From assembly GCA_944325005.1 (NCBI GenBank), contig CALUYO010000001.1, forward strand, positions 248,001 to 312,000: 64,000 nt of DNA. Reading direction: 5' to 3'. The position numbers and the translations under genes were made by a program. This document shows, in pieces, positions 952-59,232 of this stretch (position 1 is the first letter of the stretch; each line of letters begins with the position of its first letter). The DNA comes from Candidatus Gastranaerophilales bacterium. Its GTDB lineage: Bacteria > Cyanobacteriota > Vampirovibrionia > Gastranaerophilales > Gastranaerophilaceae. Under the pieces are notes generated by a model. That model saw nothing but the letters and a program-made list of their open reading frames with translations, was not told the origin of the DNA and ran no database searches.

Positions 952-1691
952 ATGAAAGATTTATTTAGGAATTCCGGGGGGGGGGCAGTTTAGCAGCTCC
1001 TAAAACAGGTTTTACACTTGCAGAGGTTCTGCTTACTCTTGGTATAATCGGAATAGTTTCCGCATTAACAATGCCGGTATTAATAGGAAATTACCAGAAG
1101 AGACAAACCGTAACGCAGTTGAAAAAAGTCTACTCTGAATTATCTCAAGCCGCTGCTATGGCTACTTTAACTTATGGAGATATGGAAAACTGGGACTATT
1201 CAATGGCAGGGCTGGATTTTTTTAACAAATATTTTACCTCCTTTATGAACATATCTCAAACTACAGTTGGAGATGTAAAAGATACAGGTATTACTTATCT
1301 TCAAGTATCAGGTAAGCCGGAAACAGGTTTAAAATTGATGAAAGATTCCGGTAATATAATAACTTTACCCTCCGGCTCACAAATTTTTGTTACTCCCGAA
1401 ATTAGCAGCACTAATATTGTCACATATAAAGCTTTTGGTGTTGATTTGAATGGCTTTAAAAAACCAAATAAATTTGGACGAGATTTATTTTTATTTTCGA
1501 TATCTAAAAAAGGAGTATTACCATATCATATGGATGATGGTGAGTCAACAGAAGTTGAGCGTGATAGAGACGAGCTTTTGAATGGACCGAGTGATCATAG
1601 TTATCAATGTAACAGAAGCGGACGCGGAATGTGGTGTGCCGCAGTAATAATGATGGATGGCTGGGAAATTAAAGATGATTATCCATGGTAA
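952..1691 (+). CDS. Pilin-like protein with G10 leader tract (frame OFF as assembled)
   Basis: A prepilin-type protein probably exported and processed by a PilD-type peptidase, then assembled in a type IV pilus or pseudopilus. The ATG at 952 has a good AAAGGAG site, but the G10 run at 976-985 sends the frame into TAG at 991. With 11 (or 8) G the frame runs through KTG|FTLAEVLLTLGIIGIVSA, the usual cleavage site and hydrophobic helix, to TAA at 1691. The mature part carries the VDLNGFKKPNKFGRDLF signature and ends in RSGRGMWCAAV...DDYPW. It is closely related in patches to the gene at 9400-10131. It ends directly against the convergent mutL stop. Status: phase-variable gene or misassembled tract; not a decayed gene, since the rest is intact. 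Confidence 0.8.
974..1001 (+). repeat. Poly-G leader element 1 (G10)
   Basis: Ten G at 976-985 followed by CAGTTTAGCAGCTCCT, which fits the family consensus CRNNYTANNAGCTCCT. The pilin gene is on the same (+) strand. Needs one more G to be in frame. Confidence 0.9.
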
Positions 1692-8530: not shown

Positions 8531-9216
8531 ATGAAACAATTATTGAGATTTGAGAGTCGGGGGGGGGGCGAAATTTAAGCTCCTGTAATGCTTTTACCCT
8601 TGCAGAGGTTTTGGTGACACTGGGTATAATCGGTATTGTTGCTGCAATAACAATTCCTGGACTGATAGCTAATTATCAGAAAAAAGTTTTGATAAGTCAA
8701 TTCAAAAAAAGCTACTCAAATTTATCAAATGCACTCAATTTGGTGCAAGCAGAGAACGGTATTGTGTATGAATGTTATAATACAGGTTTTGGAAATTATC
8801 ATCTTGAAGAATGTAACATGTTTTTTGAGGATTATTTAAAAAAAATAAATATTATAAAAGAATGTACCGGCTGGAAAAATAATTGCCATCCGAAATATAA
8901 AACAAAATCAGAAGTTTTGGCTGCAGGCGGAGAAGTGAATAATTCTGCATGTTCATTTGATATTGATTCTTATACTACTTATTATACATTATCCGACGGC
9001 TCATTATTAGTTTTACAAAATAATACTAACATTCAGCATATGGTATTTCCGTTAGTTGACGTTAACGGGATGAAAGGTCCTAATAAATGGGGGTATGATC
9101 TTTATATGCTGACTTTTCACCGTAATAATGAAGAACAGAATGTTATATTATCTAATAATGTTTGTGCAATGAAAGAAAAAGGAGGAATGTATATTAAAGA
9201 CGTTTTAGCAGAGTAA
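8531..9216 (+). CDS. Pilin-like protein with G10 leader tract (frame OFF as assembled)
   Basis: Prepilin-type protein. ATG 8531 follows AAAGGAG, but ten G at 8559-8568 lead into TAA at 8576. With 11 or 8 G the leader reads on through LSSCNA|FTLAEVLVTLGIIGIVAAI and the gene is open to 9216. The mature protein has Cys residues that could form disulfides (VYECYNTG, KECTGWKNNC) and the signature VDVNGMKGPNKWGYDLY. Diverged from the other paralogues over the C-terminal half. No terminator follows; the next promoter begins 11 bp after the stop. Confidence 0.8.
8557..8584 (+). repeat. Poly-G leader element 2 (G10)
   Basis: Ten G at 8559-8568, flank CGAAATTTAAGCTCCT. Gene on the + strand; one G short of frame. 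Confidence 0.9.
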
Positions 9217-9292: not shown

Positions 9293-9345
9293 ATGAAAAG
9301 GATTGTACCAAGCTCAATTTTCGGGGGGGGGGCGCTTTAAAGCTA
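9293..9345 (+). repeat. Poly-G leader element 3 with its short reading frame (G10)
   Basis: ATG 9293, ten G at 9323-9332, flank CGCTTTAAAGCT. As assembled the frame is a short peptide MKRIVPSSIFGGGAL ending at TAA 9338-9340. With 11 G it would continue through 9361 into the pilin domain without a stop. Confidence 0.85.
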
Positions 9346-9365
9346 TTAATAGGGCTTCTCTTGGG

Positions 9366-9402
9366 TTGCAAAAAAAATAAAATTTGTTATAATGGTGATA
9401 TG
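9366..9402 (+). promoter_or_regulatory. Second promoter P2 with leaderless ATG
   Basis: TTGCAA at 9366-9371, 16-bp spacer, TATAAT at 9388-9393 preceded by TGT (extended -10). The ATG at 9400 lies 6 nt after the -10 box, where transcription should begin. Hairpin GTGAT/ATCAC (9395-9411) places the ATG at the start of its loop. Confidence 0.6.
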
Positions 9403-10131
9403 ATACATCACTATTATGGTTCAAATAAAACAGGTTTTACCCTTGCAGAGGTTCTGATTACTCTTGGCATAATCGGAATAGTTTCCGCATTAACAATGCC
9501 GGTATTAATAGGAAATTACCAGAAGAGACAAACCGTAACGCAGTTGAAAAAAGCCTATTCTGAATTATCTCAAGCCGCTGCTATGGCTACTTTAACTTAT
9601 GGAGATATGGAAAATTGGGATTTTAGTAGCGGTACTGGTTTGGATTTTTTTAACAAATATTTTACCTCCTTTATGAATATATCTCAGACAACAGTTGCAG
9701 ACGTAAAAAATGCAGGTATTACATATATTGGGACGTCCGGTAATTCTGAGGCTTCTCTTACAAATATGCGTGATGAGGGCAATATAATAACTTTACCTTC
9801 CGGAGCACAAATTTTTGCCTCCAATAGTTCAAATGTGGTTTCAGTCAATCCGGATCAAGATCGTAGAGCTTATGTAGTGGATTTAAATGGTTATAAGCGT
9901 CCTAATAAATTCGGACGTGATTTATTTATGTTTGCGGTTACTAAAAAGCATGGTGTTACTCCATTTTCATATGATGATACCGAAAATTCTGAAGTTGAAC
10001 GTGACAGAGATGAGCTTTTGAATGGACCGAGTGCTGAAAATTATCAATGTAGCAGAAGCGGACGCGGAATGTGGTGTGCCGCAGTAATAATGATGGATGG
10101 CTGGGAAATTAGAGATGATTATCCATGGTAG
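9400..10131 (+). CDS. Pilin-like protein, downstream of a G10 element
   Basis: Prepilin-type protein with leader MIHHYYGSNKTG|FTLAEVLITLGIIGIVSALTM. I choose ATG 9400 because it gives a normal leader and has its own extended -10 promoter (leaderless mRNA). The alternative is ATG 9293, which would be in frame only if the G10 tract had 11 or 8 G. The mature part has VDLNGYKRPNKFGRDLF and ends RSGRGMWCAAV...RDDYPW. Blocks of about 84 and 52 bp are identical to the gene at 952-1691, with diverged segments between. The next pilin-like gene starts 57 bp downstream with its own promoter. Confidence 0.85.
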   Translation: MIHHYYGSNKTGFTLAEVLITLGIIGIVSALTMPVLIGNYQKRQTVTQLKKAYSELSQAAAMATLTYGDMENWDFSSGTGLDFFNKYFTSFMNISQTTVADVKNAGITYIGTSGNSEASLTNMRDEGNIITLPSGAQIFASNSSNVVSVNPDQDRRAYVVDLNGYKRPNKFGRDLFMFAVTKKHGVTPFSYDDTENSEVERDRDELLNGPSAENYQCSRSGRGMWCAAVIMMDGWEIRDDYPW

Positions 10132-10187: not shown

Positions 10188-10820
10188 ATGAAAAAAGCTT
10201 TCACGCTGGCAGAAGTCCTTGTAACTTTAGGTATTATTGGTGTTGTATCAGCTATGACTGTGCCGACATTAATGCAGAATTATCAACGACAAAGTTATGT
10301 TACACAACTGCATAAGGTTTATAATGAAATTTCACAGGCTGTTGTCAGTTATCAGACTGAAAGAAATGCCGTAAACTTAACTGAAGCCGGATTGAGCAGC
10401 ACTGCTGCTGTCCAAAACTGGCTTAAAACTTATATGAGAACTGTATCTGAATGTGACAACACAGGAGTTCCTTGTTTTGCGGAAAGCTATAAAACTATGG
10501 CAGGTGTAACTGTTACGGAAAGTTATATGGACTTTACTCCGAAAAGTTATGTTCTGCCAAGCGGTGCGGCAATAAGACCTTTATATTCTAAAGACGGTAA
10601 TAAACTAATAAATGTCTGTATAGATATAAACGGACAACAGGGACCTAATATTTTAGGAAGAGATTTGTTCTTTATGGCTATATATAATAATGGTACTATT
10701 GATACGTATGTTGCATCTTCAACTGATACACCTTTATCAGAAGAGGTAAGAGATAAGGCTTCAGTTATGTGGAAACCTTTCGCTGATATATTGAATGATA
10801 ATTGGGAAATGACTTATTAA
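10188..10820 (+). CDS. Pilin-like protein without G tract
   Basis: A prepilin-type protein of 210 residues with a compact leader MKKA|FTLAEVLVTLGIIGVVSA. ATG 10188 follows GGAGG; an in-frame upstream Met at 10125 overlaps the previous gene and is unlikely. The signature is IDINGQQGPNILGRDLF, and the protein ends in ILNDNWEMTY. It shares the N-terminal third and this ending with the broken gene at 45213-45896, so the two form a subfamily. The paired Cys in SECDNTGVPC may form a disulfide. Being free of a G tract, it looks constitutively translated. Confidence 0.88.
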   Translation: MKKAFTLAEVLVTLGIIGVVSAMTVPTLMQNYQRQSYVTQLHKVYNEISQAVVSYQTERNAVNLTEAGLSSTAAVQNWLKTYMRTVSECDNTGVPCFAESYKTMAGVTVTESYMDFTPKSYVLPSGAAIRPLYSKDGNKLINVCIDINGQQGPNILGRDLFFMAIYNNGTIDTYVASSTDTPLSEEVRDKASVMWKPFADILNDNWEMTY

Positions 10821-26831: not shown

Positions 26832-27142
26832 TTGTTAAAATCGTGCGGTTTTTTATTCTCAAGCCATTTGCTCATTATATAATGTTCATAACTTAATGCA
26901 TAGTTATACAGTGCTTTTACAAGTATTCTGCCGCTGTCAGATTTCCCGATAATAAGAAAGTCTCCTGATTTATTTTCAGCAAGCATAATTTCACGGTGAA
27001 CGATTTTATCAACATGATTTTTAGGGTTTTTGTTTATTACAATTTTTATCCAATCGCAAAGTATTCCTGTACCGGTAGAGGAGCCGGATGTTATATCATC
27101 ATTTCTTGATTGCAGGTATTTTGAAAATTCATTTAGTATCAT
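26813..27142 (-). CDS. Unknown 109-residue protein downstream of comF
   Basis: I do not recognise it. Starts within comF by an ATGA overlap (27139-27142), so translation is coupled. Contains SGSSTGTGILCDWIKIVI and a basic C-terminus NKKRKEP. No membrane segment or signal. Coupling with comF hints at a role in competence or DNA handling, but that is only context. Confidence 0.6.
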   Translation of the reverse strand: MILNEFSKYLQSRNDDITSGSSTGTGILCDWIKIVINKNPKNHVDKIVHREIMLAENKSGDFLIIGKSDSGRILVKALYNYALSYEHYIMSKWLENKKPHDFNKKRKEP

Positions 27143-27792
27143 TTTATATCTTCAAACGGGGTTGTTGCCGCAAAGCAGATAATATCATTTATTCCATTTT
27201 TTTTCAACTCTTTAATCATTTCTTCAAAAGTAGAACCTGTTGTACATATATCATCAATAATAAGAATTGTTTTCCCGTGATAATTTGTTTTGTCAGCTTT
27301 AAACGCGTTGGAAAGGTTTTTAACACGTTCATCTCTTTTTAACTTATATTGAGGTCTGGTATCTTTAACTCTTTTTATTAATCCGGTGTTAAGTGTGGCA
27401 GATGTAATTCTGCAGAACTCTTCGCCTGTCAGAACCATGTGATTGTATTTTCGCTTTCTCTCCCGTTTATGATAGATTGGCACTGGTACGACTTCAAAAT
27501 CTTTTTTGTCCGTAATTTTTGAGAAATATTCAGCCATAAATTTTGCAAGGTAATATGCTAAATCCCGCTGATTATGATATTTTAAACCTCTAATGAGTTT
27601 CTGGAGATTTTTTGAATATACACCGGCACAATATATTTTTTTGCCATCAATTATACGGTTAACTCTAACAGGCAAAAATTCCATTTGTTCATAGCATTTG
27701 GAACACATTTTAACGGCTTCTTTTGAATTTTTGCAAAAGTAGCACTTTTTTTTATATATCCAATCCAGCAGGCTTAACAAATTTTGAAGCAT
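27139..27792 (-). CDS. comF: ComF family protein (competence-associated phosphoribosyltransferase fold)
   Basis: 217 residues. N-terminal zinc finger with CYFC...CSKC, then a phosphoribosyltransferase domain with VPVPIYHKRERKRKYNH and the PRPP loop ILIIDDICTTGSTFEEM. ComF is needed for single-strand DNA handling during natural transformation. With pilMNO and many pseudopilins in the window, competence is plausible but not proven. Overlaps the next gene by 4 bp. Confidence 0.88.
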   Translation of the reverse strand: MLQNLLSLLDWIYKKKCYFCKNSKEAVKMCSKCYEQMEFLPVRVNRIIDGKKIYCAGVYSKNLQKLIRGLKYHNQRDLAYYLAKFMAEYFSKITDKKDFEVVPVPIYHKRERKRKYNHMVLTGEEFCRITSATLNTGLIKRVKDTRPQYKLKRDERVKNLSNAFKADKTNYHGKTILIIDDICTTGSTFEEMIKELKKNGINDIICFAATTPFEDIK

Positions 27793-27814: not shown

Positions 27815-28729
27815 TTATTTACATTTGTTTTTCCCGTCCCATGTAAGGTCATTACAGTGAAGGTAATCCATATTTTCGTTAAATATTACCCAGGCTGTAC
27901 AGCCATAACCGTTTATAATATTTGGAATTGAAGGGTTACATTTTTCCTCAAATGTAAACTGTGTCTCTTCTGCAGTACCTACAGGTATGACACCATATTT
28001 TGTATAATAAAACATGAATACGTCTTTCCCTGTTGTATTGGGTGGGGTTTTACCATTCAGGTCAACAAATAATTCTCCGCAAACGTTTTGCAGTGGTACA
28101 GAGTTCCCAAAATTGCTTTTACATTGTGGCGATAGTATTGTAACTCCAAGGATATTAGTCCCGTCAGCTAAAGTAATATATGGTGAAAAAGTCCCAAATT
28201 CTGTTCCGTCTAATGAATATCTTTTCCATTTCTCAACTTTATTTTTGCATGAATCTCCATATGGACAATATTGGATAGTTTTAAGATATTTCTGTAGTTT
28301 TTCTCCGAAGAGATTTCGCGAAATATCTGCCTGAGCTAGTTCCTCATCGCTCATACCATCATTAGACGAGTATCGTGTAAGCCCCCAATCTTCAATAGGT
28401 CCCTCTTCACTTATTGCCATTAACATTGCCTGACTCATAAGGCTGTTAAATTTTTTAAGTTTAGTTGTATATTCTTTTTCCTTTTGATTTTGAATTAATG
28501 ACGGCATCGTCATTGCGGCAACAACGCCTATAATTCCAAGTGTAATTAAAACTTCCGCAAGAGTGAATGCAAATTTGTGATTTTTTAAATGGTGATGCAT
28601 AATATCACTATAACCTATTTTACAATTATTGTAAAGTGCAGAATTACATAAAATTTTGAAATGTTTAATCCCCTTATTTACCGTATGTCTCGCGGGGGGG
28701 GGGGCGACCCTAGATGCTCTTATATTCAT
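27815..28729 (-). CDS. Pilin-like protein with C11 leader tract (frame ON as assembled)
   Basis: The only open member of the tract-bearing set. From ATG 28729 the coding strand has eleven C (28704-28694), and the frame continues through HKFA|FTLAEVLITLGIIGVVAAMTM to 27815. With ten C it would stop within a few codons. An internal ATG at 28600 with its own promoter (TTTACA-17-TATAGT) gives the normal leader MHHHLKNHKFA, so translation may not depend on the tract. Mature signature VDLNGKTPPNTTGKDVF, several Cys pairs. It lies 62 bp downstream of a histidine kinase gene of the same direction. Confidence 0.88.
   Translation of the reverse strand: MNIRASRVAPPPARHTVNKGIKHFKILCNSALYNNCKIGYSDIMHHHLKNHKFAFTLAEVLITLGIIGVVAAMTMPSLIQNQKEKEYTTKLKKFNSLMSQAMLMAISEEGPIEDWGLTRYSSNDGMSDEELAQADISRNLFGEKLQKYLKTIQYCPYGDSCKNKVEKWKRYSLDGTEFGTFSPYITLADGTNILGVTILSPQCKSNFGNSVPLQNVCGELFVDLNGKTPPNTTGKDVFMFYYTKYGVIPVGTAEETQFTFEEKCNPSIPNIINGYGCTAWVIFNENMDYLHCNDLTWDGKNKCK
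28592..28635 (-). promoter_or_regulatory. Internal promoter with leaderless ATG and start-codon hairpin
   Basis: TTTACA (28635-28630), 17-bp spacer, TATAGT (28612-28607), ATG 28600 six nt later. GTGAT/ATCAC stem (28608-28592) holds the ATG in its loop, as at 9395-9411. Confidence 0.55.
28689..28720 (+). repeat. Poly-G leader element 4 (G11)
   Basis: Eleven G at 28694-28704 on the + strand, flank CGACCCTAGATGCTCT (a divergent copy of the consensus). The pilin gene is on the minus strand, so the coding strand reads C11 and encodes Pro. Confidence 0.9.
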
Positions 28730-28753
28730 TGCTTCAGCCTCCTATATAACTTT

Positions 28754-28782
28754 ATTATGTATTATTTTGTTGGAATTGTCAA
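28754..28782 (-). promoter_or_regulatory. Promoter of pilin-like gene at 28729
   Basis: TTGACA (28782-28777), 17-bp spacer, CATAAT (28759-28754), then AGGAGG before ATG 28729. Confidence 0.7.
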
Positions 28783-28791
28783 TATCTTAAG

Positions 28792-30063
28792 CTACATAGG
28801 CAGTTTTATGCAAAACTCCGTTTTTACATTTTCTTCACTGGTAACAGTGATTTCTCCTCCATGGGATTTAACAATCTGCTGGGAAAGATATAAGCCAAGG
28901 CCGGTACCTATTTTTCGGAATTTTTTTGCTGCGGAATAATATTTATTGAATATAAGTTTTAATTCATTTGATGGTATTCCCTGCCCGTAATCTATTACGG
29001 AAATTGTTATAAAGCCAGGGATTTCGCCGGTTGTTATATCAATTCTGTCTTTAGTATTACTGTGTGAGATGGCATTGGATATCAGGTTTTTAATAACTCT
29101 TTCCAGCTGCATTGAATCTGCTGTTACTTTAATATCTCTTGACGGTGTGAAATAGATTGTTATACCTGAGTTGTTTGCAATCGGTTGTGTACTTTCTACA
29201 ATATCCGATATAAATTTATTGAGCATAATATTTTCTTTCAGCAGTTTAATACCTGTTTCTTTAATTTTATATGTTTCAAGAATAATTTGCACAAGGTCAA
29301 CAAGTTCTTCATTTGATTTTTTCATGTTTAAAAGTGCAACCTGTTGTTTTTCTGTTATTTCTCCGAATGTTCCATTCAAAAGAAAGTTTATTATATTGGA
29401 TTCAGCAACAATCGGCACTTTTAAGTCATGTGTTAGAGTTGCAACAAAATCCTCTTTTAGGGTTTCAATTTCTCTCTCTTTGGTTACATCTTTTATAAGA
29501 ATTACGTATCTTTTTTTATCATCGTCTAACGATAATTTTATGGAATGCATTATAAAGTTATTAGTAGGTGTATGTTTTACAAATATATCTTTGCCTTTTA
29601 ATCTTTCTATAGGGGTATCATCACTGATTTGAATATAGTCAAAGATATTTGTGCCGATAATTTCCTGTCCTTTTGCTCCGAACCATTCACTTACCTGAGG
29701 GGTTACGCGTAGAATATTATGTTTATCATTAATAATCAAAATCCCGTCTGAAAGCGAATTAATCACTGATTCCAACAGTTTATTCTGGCGCATGAGTTCC
29801 GCCTGATATTCCACAATCATTTTTTCTCTGTCATTCAGTGTTTCTACCATTCTGTTAATACTGTCTGTTACATTCTGGTAGGTGGGATGATTAATCTCAT
29901 CAATTTTTGTGGATAAGTTTCCGTATCTTACCGAGTTTACGGTATTTGTGACCATGCCTAAATAGTCGTTAATCTTTGACCAGCGTTTGTTTGTCTGACG
30001 TGTGATTAAGAATAATATGATAAATACAAATATAATACAGAAATTTAACAGGTACCAGAGCAT
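28792..30063 (-). CDS. PAS-domain sensor histidine kinase
   Basis: 423 residues. One N-terminal membrane segment (about residues 5-22), a HAMP-like linker with coiled coil, a PAS domain (SVINSLSDGILIINDKHNILRVTP), a HisKA domain with the phospho-acceptor His in LTHDLKVP (about residue 211), and an HATPase domain with N box NLISNAISH, YGQGIP and GTGLGLYLSQQIV. No response regulator gene adjoins it. The signal is unknown. Only 9 bp separate its stop from the -35 box of the pilin-like gene promoter. Confidence 0.9.
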   Translation of the reverse strand: MLWYLLNFCIIFVFIILFLITRQTNKRWSKINDYLGMVTNTVNSVRYGNLSTKIDEINHPTYQNVTDSINRMVETLNDREKMIVEYQAELMRQNKLLESVINSLSDGILIINDKHNILRVTPQVSEWFGAKGQEIIGTNIFDYIQISDDTPIERLKGKDIFVKHTPTNNFIMHSIKLSLDDDKKRYVILIKDVTKEREIETLKEDFVATLTHDLKVPIVAESNIINFLLNGTFGEITEKQQVALLNMKKSNEELVDLVQIILETYKIKETGIKLLKENIMLNKFISDIVESTQPIANNSGITIYFTPSRDIKVTADSMQLERVIKNLISNAISHSNTKDRIDITTGEIPGFITISVIDYGQGIPSNELKLIFNKYYSAAKKFRKIGTGLGLYLSQQIVKSHGGEITVTSEENVKTEFCIKLPM

Positions 30064-34699: not shown

Positions 34700-35415
34700 A
34701 TGAAAATGAAAAGATTTTGTAATGTCGGGGGGGGGGCGAACTAGAAGCTCCTGTTCCGGCTTTTACACTTGCAGAAGTATTGATTACTCTTGGAATTATA
34801 GGAGTTATTGCATCTATTACTATTCCTAATGTTGTTGCAAAATATCGTGCTTCTGTTTTAAGAACGCAGTTTAAAAAATCATACAGTATTTTATCTCAGG
34901 CACTAAGTTTGACAGCAGAAGAACTTGGAGGTAATCTTCATGAAATGTTTAAAGATGAACCTCCAGGGTTTGACGGGGCTGTATTATTTCGTGAAACTTT
35001 TAATAATTATCTGATATCAACTTTAGAATTAAAAAAATCATCCCAATTGTTCGCATTTGCACCTTATAATAAAAATTTAGAAAGCGATGATACTACAATG
35101 GGGCTCGGTACATATCCTGGATATATTATATTAGGTGATGGTACTGCTGTTTCTGTATTGAAAAATAATGATAGATTGAATGTACTGGTTGATATAAATG
35201 GGCTTAAACGTCCAAATCGTGCCGGTTATGATACTTTTTTGTTTGTAGTGGATACAAAACAGGATATTTTAACAAGCTGGTCTCAGGATGCTCAGAAATA
35301 TTGTTCCAAAACATCTTCACATTCCTATAACGGACGTGCATGCACATATTATGCAATGATTGATAGGAGTCCAGACGATAGTTCAAAGGGATATTGGGAA
35401 GCTTTAGATTTTTAA
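34700..35415 (+). CDS. Pilin-like protein with G10 leader tract (frame OFF as assembled)
   Basis: Prepilin-type protein. From ATG 34700 (MKMKRFCNV) the ten G at 34727-34736 lead into TAG at 34742. One more G gives GGGGELEAPVPA|FTLAEVLITLGIIGVIASITI and an open frame to 35415. The mature region has VDINGLKRPNRAGYDTF. It ends 8 bp before the stop of the convergent gene at 35424. No second promoter or internal Met precedes the pilin helix, so this copy depends fully on the tract. Confidence 0.8.
34725..34752 (+). repeat. Poly-G leader element 5 (G10)
   Basis: Ten G at 34727-34736, flank CGAACTAGAAGCTCCT, gene on the + strand. Confidence 0.9.
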
Positions 35416-39014: not shown

Positions 39015-39803
39015 ATTCTTCTGAACCTATTTTATAGTCTTCATAAGAAAAATTTTCATTTCCGGATAAAATATTTTCCAGACTGGTGCGTCCTAAATAA
39101 GGTTGTACACCTGGTCGCAAAAAATTTTTCTCAATCTGTACATAATATGCGTCTTGTCCAAATCTGTTCGGCAGTTTAGGACCATTCACATCAAAGTAAA
39201 TGTATGCACATACTGTATTTAGTGATGTTGCTGTAACCGGTTTACCATCTGCATCCAGTATAGGTCTTCCATTTTCATCATGTTTTTCATACGTTTCCTC
39301 ACCGTAACAGTCAGGAATATGGCTTTGATTAACATATAATATGGCTCCATTAGTAAGAATAATAGCAGGCATATATGTTACCAGCCATTCAACTCCGGCA
39401 TCTCCGCCGTCAGTGTAAAATTTAGAGTATTTAATCCCGTAATAAAATTGAGAACAGTTATCCTGAGACATATTTTCGCATAGTTTTGCCCCGTTAAAAT
39501 ACTTTACAAACTGCTGTGCTGTTTCAAAATGTGTGTTATTCGGATTAAAAAATATTGAATTATCATTCAGACTTCCACCTTCCATACGGCTTAAACTTAC
39601 CGCGTTACTTATGTCTGAATAAGTTTTTTTTACTCTTGTAATAAGCTCTTTATCTTTATGTTTGCTTATTAGTGACGGTAAAGTCAACGAGGCAACAACC
39701 CCGATAATTCCCAGAGTAATTAAAACTTCTGCAAGTGTGAAACCACTGTGCAGGTCTGTATTTTGCGGGGGGGGGGCACTCTAAAAGCTTCTTGTATAAA
39801 CAT
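39013..39803 (-). CDS. Pilin-like protein with C10 leader tract (frame OFF as assembled)
   Basis: Prepilin-type protein on the minus strand. ATG 39803 follows GGAGG. The leader begins MFIQEAFRVPPP; with the ten C seen, the frame slips off, while eleven give PPPPQNTDLHSG|FTLAEVLITLGIIGVVASLTL and an open frame to TAA 39013. The leader start MFxQxAxR resembles that of the gene at 59232 even though the mature parts differ. The signature is FDVNGPKLPNRFGQDAY. Cys residues at KLCENMSQDNC and NTVCAYI may pair. Confidence 0.8.
39764..39792 (+). repeat. Poly-G leader element 6 (G10)
   Basis: Ten G at 39767-39776 on the + strand, flank CACTCTAAAAGCTTCT. Gene on the minus strand. Confidence 0.9.
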
Positions 39804-45105: not shown

Positions 45106-45158
45106 ATGAAAAAGATTGTATTGTTTGAGGCCTGCGGGGGGGGGGCGCTTTAAGGCTA
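45106..45158 (+). repeat. Poly-G leader element 7 with short reading frame (G10)
   Basis: ATG 45106, ten G at 45136-45145, flank CGCTTTAAGGCT. As assembled it encodes MKKIVLFEACGGGAL and stops at 45151-45153. With 11 G the frame reaches the pilin domain. Most like element 3. Confidence 0.85.
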
Positions 45159-45178
45159 TTTAAAAGCATTTTATCCTA

Positions 45179-45215
45179 TTGGAAAATTTTTAAAATATGT
45201 TATAATAGTGACATG
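45179..45215 (+). promoter_or_regulatory. Second promoter P2 with leaderless ATG 45213
   Basis: TTGGAA, 16-bp spacer, TATAAT (45201-45206) preceded by TGT, ATG 6 nt later: the same layout as at 9366-9402. Confidence 0.6.
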
Positions 45216-45896
45216 AAACTTCATAAATATGATATTTATAAAAATGGTTTTACCCTTGCCGAGGTTCTGGTTACTTTAGGAATTATCGGAGTTGTTTCGG
45301 CTATGACAGTTCCGACTTTAATGCAAAATCATCAGCGAAAGACTTATGTAGTTCAATTGCATAAGGTTTATAATGATTTTTCGCAGGCAGCTTTACGTTA
45401 TATGACTGACAGAAATGCATTAAACCTTACTGAAGCTGGTCTGACTGATATTAACAGTGCAGATAGTTTTATAAAAACTTATTTTAAAATTGTTAAAGAT
45501 TGAGGCTCTGATGCTTCTGATTGTGTTGCATCGGAGTATAAAAAACTTGATGGCACAGCTCTTGTGCCCTTTCCGGATGGAAATGAAAGACATACTTATA
45601 TCCTTACAAGTGGAGCCGCTGTTCATGTATTTATGGCTCCAAACGTGGTAAATGCTTTGCAGATACACGTTGATGTAAACGGAACTAAAGGTCCTAATAT
45701 TATAGGAAGAGATGTTTTTGCTTTAATGCTTTATAGGAACGGAGTTATTGACGACTATGCAAATGGTGTAACACAGCCTCCCTTGACAGAAGAACAGAGA
45801 GAAACAAGTTATACAACATGGTGTAATAGTTCTACTGTAACTTTCTGGGGGTGTTTCGGTAAACTTTTAAATGATAACTGGGAGATGACATATTAA
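45213..45896 (+). pseudogene. Pilin-like gene interrupted by an in-frame TGA
   Basis: Leader MKLHKYDIYKNG|FTLAEVLVTLGIIGVVSAMTV, then an intact frame broken only by TGA at 45501-45503; the same frame resumes and ends in LLNDNWEMTY at 45896. The paralogue at 10188 has Cys (TGT) at the matching place (RTVSECDN versus KIVKD-stop), so a single base change explains it. nadA and comF use TGA as stop, so it is not a genome-wide recoding. A 9-bp stem with one wobble follows the TGA (45506-45536), which keeps selenocysteine open as an unlikely alternative. The signature VDVNGTKGPNIIGRDVF is kept. Confidence 0.75.
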
Positions 45897-58453: not shown

Positions 58454-59232
58454 TTACCAGGGATAGTTATCAGGGATTTTCCATCCGTTTACTTCAATTA
58501 ATCGTCCGCAATAAAAGTTTCTATACTTCTGATTGTTGGTTTTATAGCATCCATATCCATGTGGTGACGCTGTCGTTAGAATATCATTATCTTGGTATAA
58601 AGCACCCCAAAACTTAATTTTATAGCCTATGCCATAAAAGTTGTATGCGTCAAACACAAAGACATCTCTTCCCATTTTATTTAAGCCTTTCTGTCCGTTG
58701 ATGTCAGCCAATAACCATATATATCCGTTTGGGATATTTGCAAAAAATGCCAGTATGACTCCATTGTTTAATAAAAGATAAAGCTTTATACCTGCAAAAA
58801 GTTGACTGCCATCCTCATTTAATAGCATTTTGTAATCAGGCATATCAGATGATTTAACAATTTTTGCTCCTTGAAAATATGGTAAATAATACTGCTCAAC
58901 AAAGGGGGCGATACAATCATACTCATAGCATTCTTTTTCCGGATAAGTCCAATCTGGCATAGGACCATTGTCGATTTCTGATAATTTTACTGCATTATTC
59001 AAATCAGAATAAACTTTTCTAAGCTGAACTACAGTTTGATGTTTCTGGTAATTTGTAATTAATGCCGGCATGGTCAAAGCAGCAATGATGCCTATAATCC
59101 CGAGAGTGATTAACACTTCTGCCAAAGTAAAAGCAAATAAATAATTACTTAAATTTTTAAAAGTCCTGATATGGCACGTTAAATGGCATGTTTGCGGGGG
59201 GGGGGCAATCTCAAAGCTCCTTGTTTAAACAT
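58454..59232 (-). CDS. Pilin-like protein with C10 leader tract (frame OFF as assembled)
   Basis: Minus-strand prepilin-type gene. ATG 59232 follows AGGAGG; leader MFKQGALRLPPP, then with ten C the frame hits TAA after a few codons. Eleven C give an unusually long leader of about 34 residues ending NYLFA|FTLAEVLITLGIIGIIAAL, open to 58454. Head signature ADINGQKGLNKMGRDVF (Leu in place of the usual Pro) and ending GWKIPDNYPW, shared with the genes at 952 and 9400. Cys-rich (KECYEYDC, YGCYKTN, FYCGR). Confidence 0.8.
59193..59221 (+). repeat. Poly-G leader element 8 (G10)
   Basis: Ten G at 59196-59205 on the + strand, flank CAATCTCAAAGCTCCT. Gene on the minus strand. Confidence 0.9.

Follow-up and report, generated by a model that had tools for sequence, protein, structure and literature searches.

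G-tract phase variation is already well known, and several described systems come close to the one considered here. In Neisseria the Opa family and pilC form multigene surface families in which a repeat tract in the leader region of each member shifts the reading frame; in Opa the repeats are CTCTT pentamers, present in about 11 genes, which are not known to have in common an OFF offset linked to a single usual length. Neisseria pilE/pilS varies antigenically by another route, gene conversion from silent cassettes at a G-quadruplex. The phasome of Campylobacter consists of poly-G/C contingency loci, with G tracts of ~8-12 in the coding sequence of many loci with surface functions in a low-GC host; 53% of the tracts are 9 long and 26% are 10, and only 5% of ORF tracts have C on the coding strand (PMC6321876). 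In the gut commensal Bifidobacterium breve a pilus gene is interrupted by a G10/G11 tract, and its two frames become fused through slippage (PMC9187656). GnT mutational hotspots alter the length of a G run through point mutation beside the run and need a 3' T (PMC12344412).

The tracts described here, from a 2.0 Mb draft genome in 27 contigs, share with Campylobacter the length range, the many loci, the surface functions and the low-GC host, with Opa and pilC the multigene surface family with a frame-shifting leader tract, and with pilE/pilS the G-rich DNA beside a type IV pilin gene. They differ from the Campylobacter loci in that ~89% are exactly 10, one OFF offset holds nearly throughout and the flank contains a conserved motif. 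In addition, C stands on the coding strand in 32 of the 85 pilin tracts, since the G strand goes with replication. Where B. breve has one or two sortase-pilus clusters per genome there are ~85 type IV pilins, and in the portion of the B. breve account seen (PMC9187656) neither replication orientation nor a flanking motif forms part of the description. Gene conversion of the pilE/pilS kind was considered and rejected, as it calls for silent copies lacking expression signals, whereas here the G10 run is single, and in most copies a Shine-Dalgarno (SD) site and an ATG precede the tract. Unlike at the GnT hotspots, the base after the run is C in nearly all cases. The sole runs in the genome followed by T (L040 and the second run of L064, at 5492) are 11 and 14 long, as the hotspot idea predicts, in two cases.

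The window, by which is meant the whole 64-kb stretch of DNA analysed, contains eight such tracts, one of which is 11 long. The features of this locus and its neighbours are as follows.

27139..27792, minus strand: ComF-like phosphoribosyltransferase, which follows the kinase directly where a species lacks the pilin
27815..28729, minus strand: type IV pilin with phase-variable leader (MNIRASRVAPPPARHTV...FA/FTLAEV, the slash marking the predicted cleavage site), open with C11 (ORF and Pfam)
28598..28635, minus strand: second, inner promoter-like site TTTACA-17-TATAGT, then 6 nt and ATG 28600 (consensus match)
28694..28704, plus strand: in-frame (ON) tract, G11, coding C11 (read from the sequence, frame analysis)
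28705..28720, plus strand: 3' flank of the G run on the G strand, CGACCCTAGATGCTCT, a degenerate motif copy with GCT 11 nt past the run
28738..28743, minus strand: Shine-Dalgarno AGGAGG, 5' of ATG 28729 (direct reading)
28754..28782, minus strand: promoter-like site of the switch leader, TTGACA-17-CATAAT (consensus match, 11/12)
28792..30063, minus strand: PAS sensor histidine kinase, conserved upstream neighbour, outside the switch

The initial annotation held that the C11 on the coding (minus) strand joins ATG 28729 to the pilin, and the frame is indeed open from that ATG through the tract for 304 aa in total, so that in the assembled majority sequence the gene would be ON. The product carries an N-terminal methylation motif (Pfam PF07963, residues 51-74, score above the cut-off) and a predicted class III leader cleavage site (G/A before F-T-L-A-E), both of which mark it as a type IV pilin. 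ATG 28600 is a possible leaderless start within the fused frame, giving MHHHLKNHKFA/FTLAEV, and together with the inner promoter-like site, which here as at other loci is a consensus match only, it could permit production of the pilin independently of the tract. Mature-pilin proteomics alone therefore cannot distinguish a tract-dependent from a tract-independent product. The same leaderless-transcript style of arrangement, a TATAAT-like box, 6 nt and then an ATG within the fused frame, is seen at 9323-9436 and 45136-45249 of the window as well as at 28598-28635, and at several further loci.

The other seven tracts in the window are all exactly 10 and all need 11 or 8 to join the frames.

976..985, plus strand: G10 tract, forward pilin, OFF
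8559..8568, plus strand: G10 tract, forward pilin, OFF
9323..9332, plus strand: G10 tract, forward pilin with inner promoter, OFF
34727..34736, plus strand: G10 tract, forward pilin, OFF
39767..39776, plus strand: G10 tract, reverse pilin (coding C10), OFF
45136..45145, plus strand: G10 tract, forward pilin with inner promoter and a short pilin ORF of 84 aa, OFF
59196..59205, plus strand: G10 tract, reverse pilin (coding C10), OFF

The C11 locus is thus the single ON copy of the eight, as had been proposed. Genome-wide it has company, since L034, L064, L067 and L082 likewise have an open frame at 11, and L058 has one at 10, which gives five loci ON by length 11 and one through a different offset (L011 is unsure). 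With ~6% of tracts at 11, one ON locus among eight is unremarkable. Chance or base composition was rejected as a source of the tracts, as the window has 17 G9 matches where 0.01 would be expected. Two tract-free pilin starts also lie in the window, at 10200 and 58214, one with a short SD-ATG leader (MKKA/FTLAEV) and one with a 93-aa reading frame.

In the source genome tract lengths were read from stretches taken around the runs, all lengths, here and in other genomes, being those of assembled majority sequences of draft genomes, and one genome per species was used for comparison between species. The source genome contains 101 runs of at least 9 G/C and 99 distinct runs of at least 8, of which ~90% are exactly 10 and ~85 precede a pilin start. 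The pilin N-terminal motif has 95 matches in the genome, and it follows that most pilins carry the switch. Across 32 genomes of the genus the C-flanked runs, summed from tables, came to about 1404 G10, 89 G11 and 78 G9 (~89% at 10); lengths 9 and 11 were about equal in frequency with no visible excess of ON. In a second species (G007) 64 of 66 tracts were 10. This narrow peak could reflect selection for exactly 10. Repeat number differs between otherwise equal copies both among paralogues, L034 and L035 of this genome being nearly identical with G11 and G10 respectively, and among orthologues, that of the C11 pilin in G004 being C10; the tracts are moreover long enough to slip and lie within or before coding sequence, as is expected of contingency loci. 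A caveat is that homopolymer G runs are prone to error in PCR and Illumina sequencing (PMC9187656), and that the assembly, in 27 contigs, has draft status, so that the lengths might be artefacts of assembly or sequencing and the genes in truth all in frame or all broken. Dozens of species of the genus, each assembled separately, show one and the same length and offset, and 10 and 11 were both called within one assembly between near-identical flanks (L034 and L035), which makes this explanation highly improbable.

A further regularity concerns the reading frame. Among pilin loci with a recognisable SD and start, both called by rule, 79 of 85 in this genome and 49 of 51 in G007 require 11 or 8 for in-frame joining, together 128 of 136 (94%). 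The leaders and the post-tract offsets span all three phases yet sum, in three compensating combinations, to the same need, and frozen ancestry was for that reason rejected as the origin of the offset. In 72 loci with post-tract segments of at least 20 aa (2348 codons) there are only 3 stops in the pilin frame, all at one locus, compared with 198 and 289 in the other frames. A stretch that is free of stops in the pilin frame only implies that the fused protein has been under selection, and the claim that ATG, tract and pilin are meant to share a frame is well supported by these counts; joining is intended and the usual length blocks it. Lengths 11 and 8 leave the frame open while 10 and 9 close it, and by this reading of the frames the usual length of 10 is OFF and one base more is ON.

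An offset so nearly constant, with ~89% of tracts exactly 10, a fused frame under coding constraint and, in G007, not one pilin locus ON by assembled length, would also be expected if the exact 10-run were a site of programmed recoding, at which a -1 shift of the ribosome or a slip of RNA polymerase provided a constant low output of pilin, with 11 a constitutive in-frame mutant. Against this, some genes carry a G run in the mRNA and others a C run, although offset and length peak do not differ between them, and neither ribosome nor RNA polymerase should treat the two alike. Loci of other species at 9 or 11 keep the offset as well (11 of 13 and 9 of 12 respectively), the former closed and the latter open, which shows that length shifts without compensation of the frame. 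As the G strand and the motif also follow the replication fork and not the transcript, we regard recoding as quite unlikely.

The G strand of the element is the leading strand irrespective of gene direction. In the first classification pilin tracts lay in 53 forward and 32 reverse genes, and it is because the G's are always on the leading strand that forward genes read GGG and reverse genes PPP. In the sampled stretches runs of at least 9 G were oriented 80:0 along the direction of replication, while control G4 runs were divided 254:246 and G5 runs were mildly biased (49:26); a general leading-strand excess of G was rejected as the cause on the comparison of G4 with the long runs. In two species with large contigs (G007 and G026) a full circuit of the genome meets just two changes of G strand. 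The contigs of the source genome are uniform with two exceptions: contig 2 contains one switch, and contig 10 has one deviating site 93 bases from its end. The leading strand was assigned by regression of skew instead of by the position of dnaA, which lies inside oriented domains and was rejected as the switch point. With gene direction controlled, tract orientation was associated with GC skew (+0.062, t=10) and AT skew (-0.066, t=-11), which identifies the G strand as the leading strand and as template of the lagging strand. The two leader types are interleaved in the pilin tree, with 19 changes (23.5 if shuffled), at least 5 of them forced by well-supported branches, and the sister of the C11 pilin itself carries the opposite type. 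Leader type therefore tracks the replication fork and not pilin ancestry.

Motif searches run separately on the forward and reverse genes of two species converged on one consensus, TTTAAAGCT or TCTCAAAGCT, located 3' of the run when the G strand is read. The first GC(T/A) is mostly 9-11 nt past the G run in both gene classes, and AGCT is found there in ~53-75% of pilin loci as against 5% of random 14-mers. Since the motif is on the pilin side in forward genes but in the leader in reverse genes, coding does not explain it. Nearly all runs are flanked 3' by C, and the element may be defined as G10 with C on both sides. At the C11 locus the motif copy is degenerate (TAGATGCTC). That the flank of this locus is the most diverged of the eight holds, but barely (mean identity 0.36, the next 0.37), and the suggestion that its divergence stabilises the tract or reflects an older ON state found no support: the sole orthologue (G004, 74% identity) is C10 and OFF. 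There is thus no sign that C11 is old or stable, and the ancestral look belongs to short leaders without a tract.

The histidine kinase at 28792-30063 does lie upstream in the same direction, as had been noted, but a link to the pilin found no support. The kinase is conserved in every genome of the genus searched, but of the 30 orthologous loci read, 11 had a tract in the gap that follows the kinase, mostly before unrelated pilins; as the pilin also has a promoter-like site of its own, the kinase is, on gene order, incidental to the switch. Depending on the species, the gap between kinase and comF is empty or contains the orthologue of the C11 pilin or unrelated pilins (30-36% identity) behind similar leaders. 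At one such locus (L135, G020) 243 stop-free codons in the pilin frame separate tract and pilin start and could represent a fused extra domain.

Such turnover in a single gap would be expected if tract and motif were the signature of an element, mobile or recombining, whose insertion or exchange of leaders has a replication-strand bias, pilin bodies being shuffled and frame switching secondary. In keeping with this, orientation stays fixed relative to the replichore even though pilin bodies switch between leader types, and the element is present in non-pilin genes and in one tandem duplicate (L273). Flanking repeats marking an insertion were not found around the C11 gene, no candidate enzyme came to light, and insertion alone leaves the 94% shared offset through compensating phases unexplained, so that we consider a mobile origin of the pattern very unlikely. 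At L273 (G004:C70:15000-16500) the tandem copies, G10 and G9, are 26 bp apart, each with a flank of its own, and lie in a single pilin leader. The few non-pilin genes with the element resemble, as judged by eye, surface-glycan genes; in the source genome L024, L025, L055, L023, L049 and L070 have G10 or G11 in genes resembling epimerase, glycosyltransferase and acyltransferase, and some of their frames are open on both sides at 10.

The tract system was found in one genus of Gastranaerophilales, and the relatives found by the pattern of the element are Gastranaerophilales, including records labelled 'Fusobacterium sp. CAG:439'. Some species of the genus have large pilin sets (96-128 matches) with almost no tracts, and the sampled pilins of G002 and G030, like those of the sister genus, mostly have short SD-ATG leaders without a tract. 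From this distribution the switch appears to have been added later to pilins already present, with tract-free short leaders ancestral. A phage origin was rejected, weakly, on an exact-pattern scan that found element plus motif on no viral contig. Around the gene inverted repeats were only weak, distant pairs, and an invertible promoter, segment or shufflon was rejected for want of suitable ones. Loss of mismatch repair was likewise rejected as the cause of slippage, MutS domain I being present in 54 of 58 genomes, the source genome included. From stop to stop the MutS frame measures ~903-906 aa in most element-rich species, compared with ~859-866 aa in several of the element-poor species, a difference that may be only phylogeny. 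No description of the system was found in the literature searched for this group, which is weak evidence of absence.

Taken as a whole these observations make it probable, in our judgement, that the pilins are subject to default-OFF phase variation by slippage at a short replication-polar DNA element. This element would comprise G10 bounded by C at either end and, 9-11 nt further 3' on the G strand, a TTTAAAGCT-like motif, and would lie between an SD-ATG leader and the prepilin. At length 10 leader and pilin would be one base off, translation would stop soon past the tract and the pilin would be OFF; gain of one base (11) or loss of two (8) would join the frames and turn it ON. The change in length would probably come about by slippage in replication, which is favoured because offset and length are the same whether the RNA carries G or C and because orientation and motif follow the fork; the locking of the G's to the leading strand likewise would fit a process tied to the fork. 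We infer that slippage is frequent enough to be useful, that how fast or in which direction it proceeds depends on orientation and motif, and that the cell produces just a few of the ~85 pilins at any one time. Ordinary phase variation does not account for the leading-strand lock of the G strand or for the TTTAAAGCT-like motif. The spacing of the motif would permit, as one possibility, a primer end or other replication event to be placed at the run. A more specific proposal, which we put forward tentatively and think unlikely as it stands, is a dedicated fork-polar slippage device in which the motif on the lagging-strand template positions an enzyme (e.g. a primer start, whereby an Okazaki junction would fall in the run), thereby fixing length 10 and a controlled rate of +1 change; the genus would then run some 85-150 pilins, and some glycan genes, default-OFF and rarely ON.

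Some 85 pilins with one default-OFF phase, a leading-strand lock and a motif at fixed spacing suggest a switch rate that is built by replication and not by tract length alone. It thus becomes testable whether bacteria evolve replication-oriented elements to set the rate and direction of mutation at chosen sites. The system further implies, for these uncultured gut relatives of the cyanobacteria, surface variation comparable in extent to that of known pathogens, and such variation is relevant to host contact and to phage resistance.
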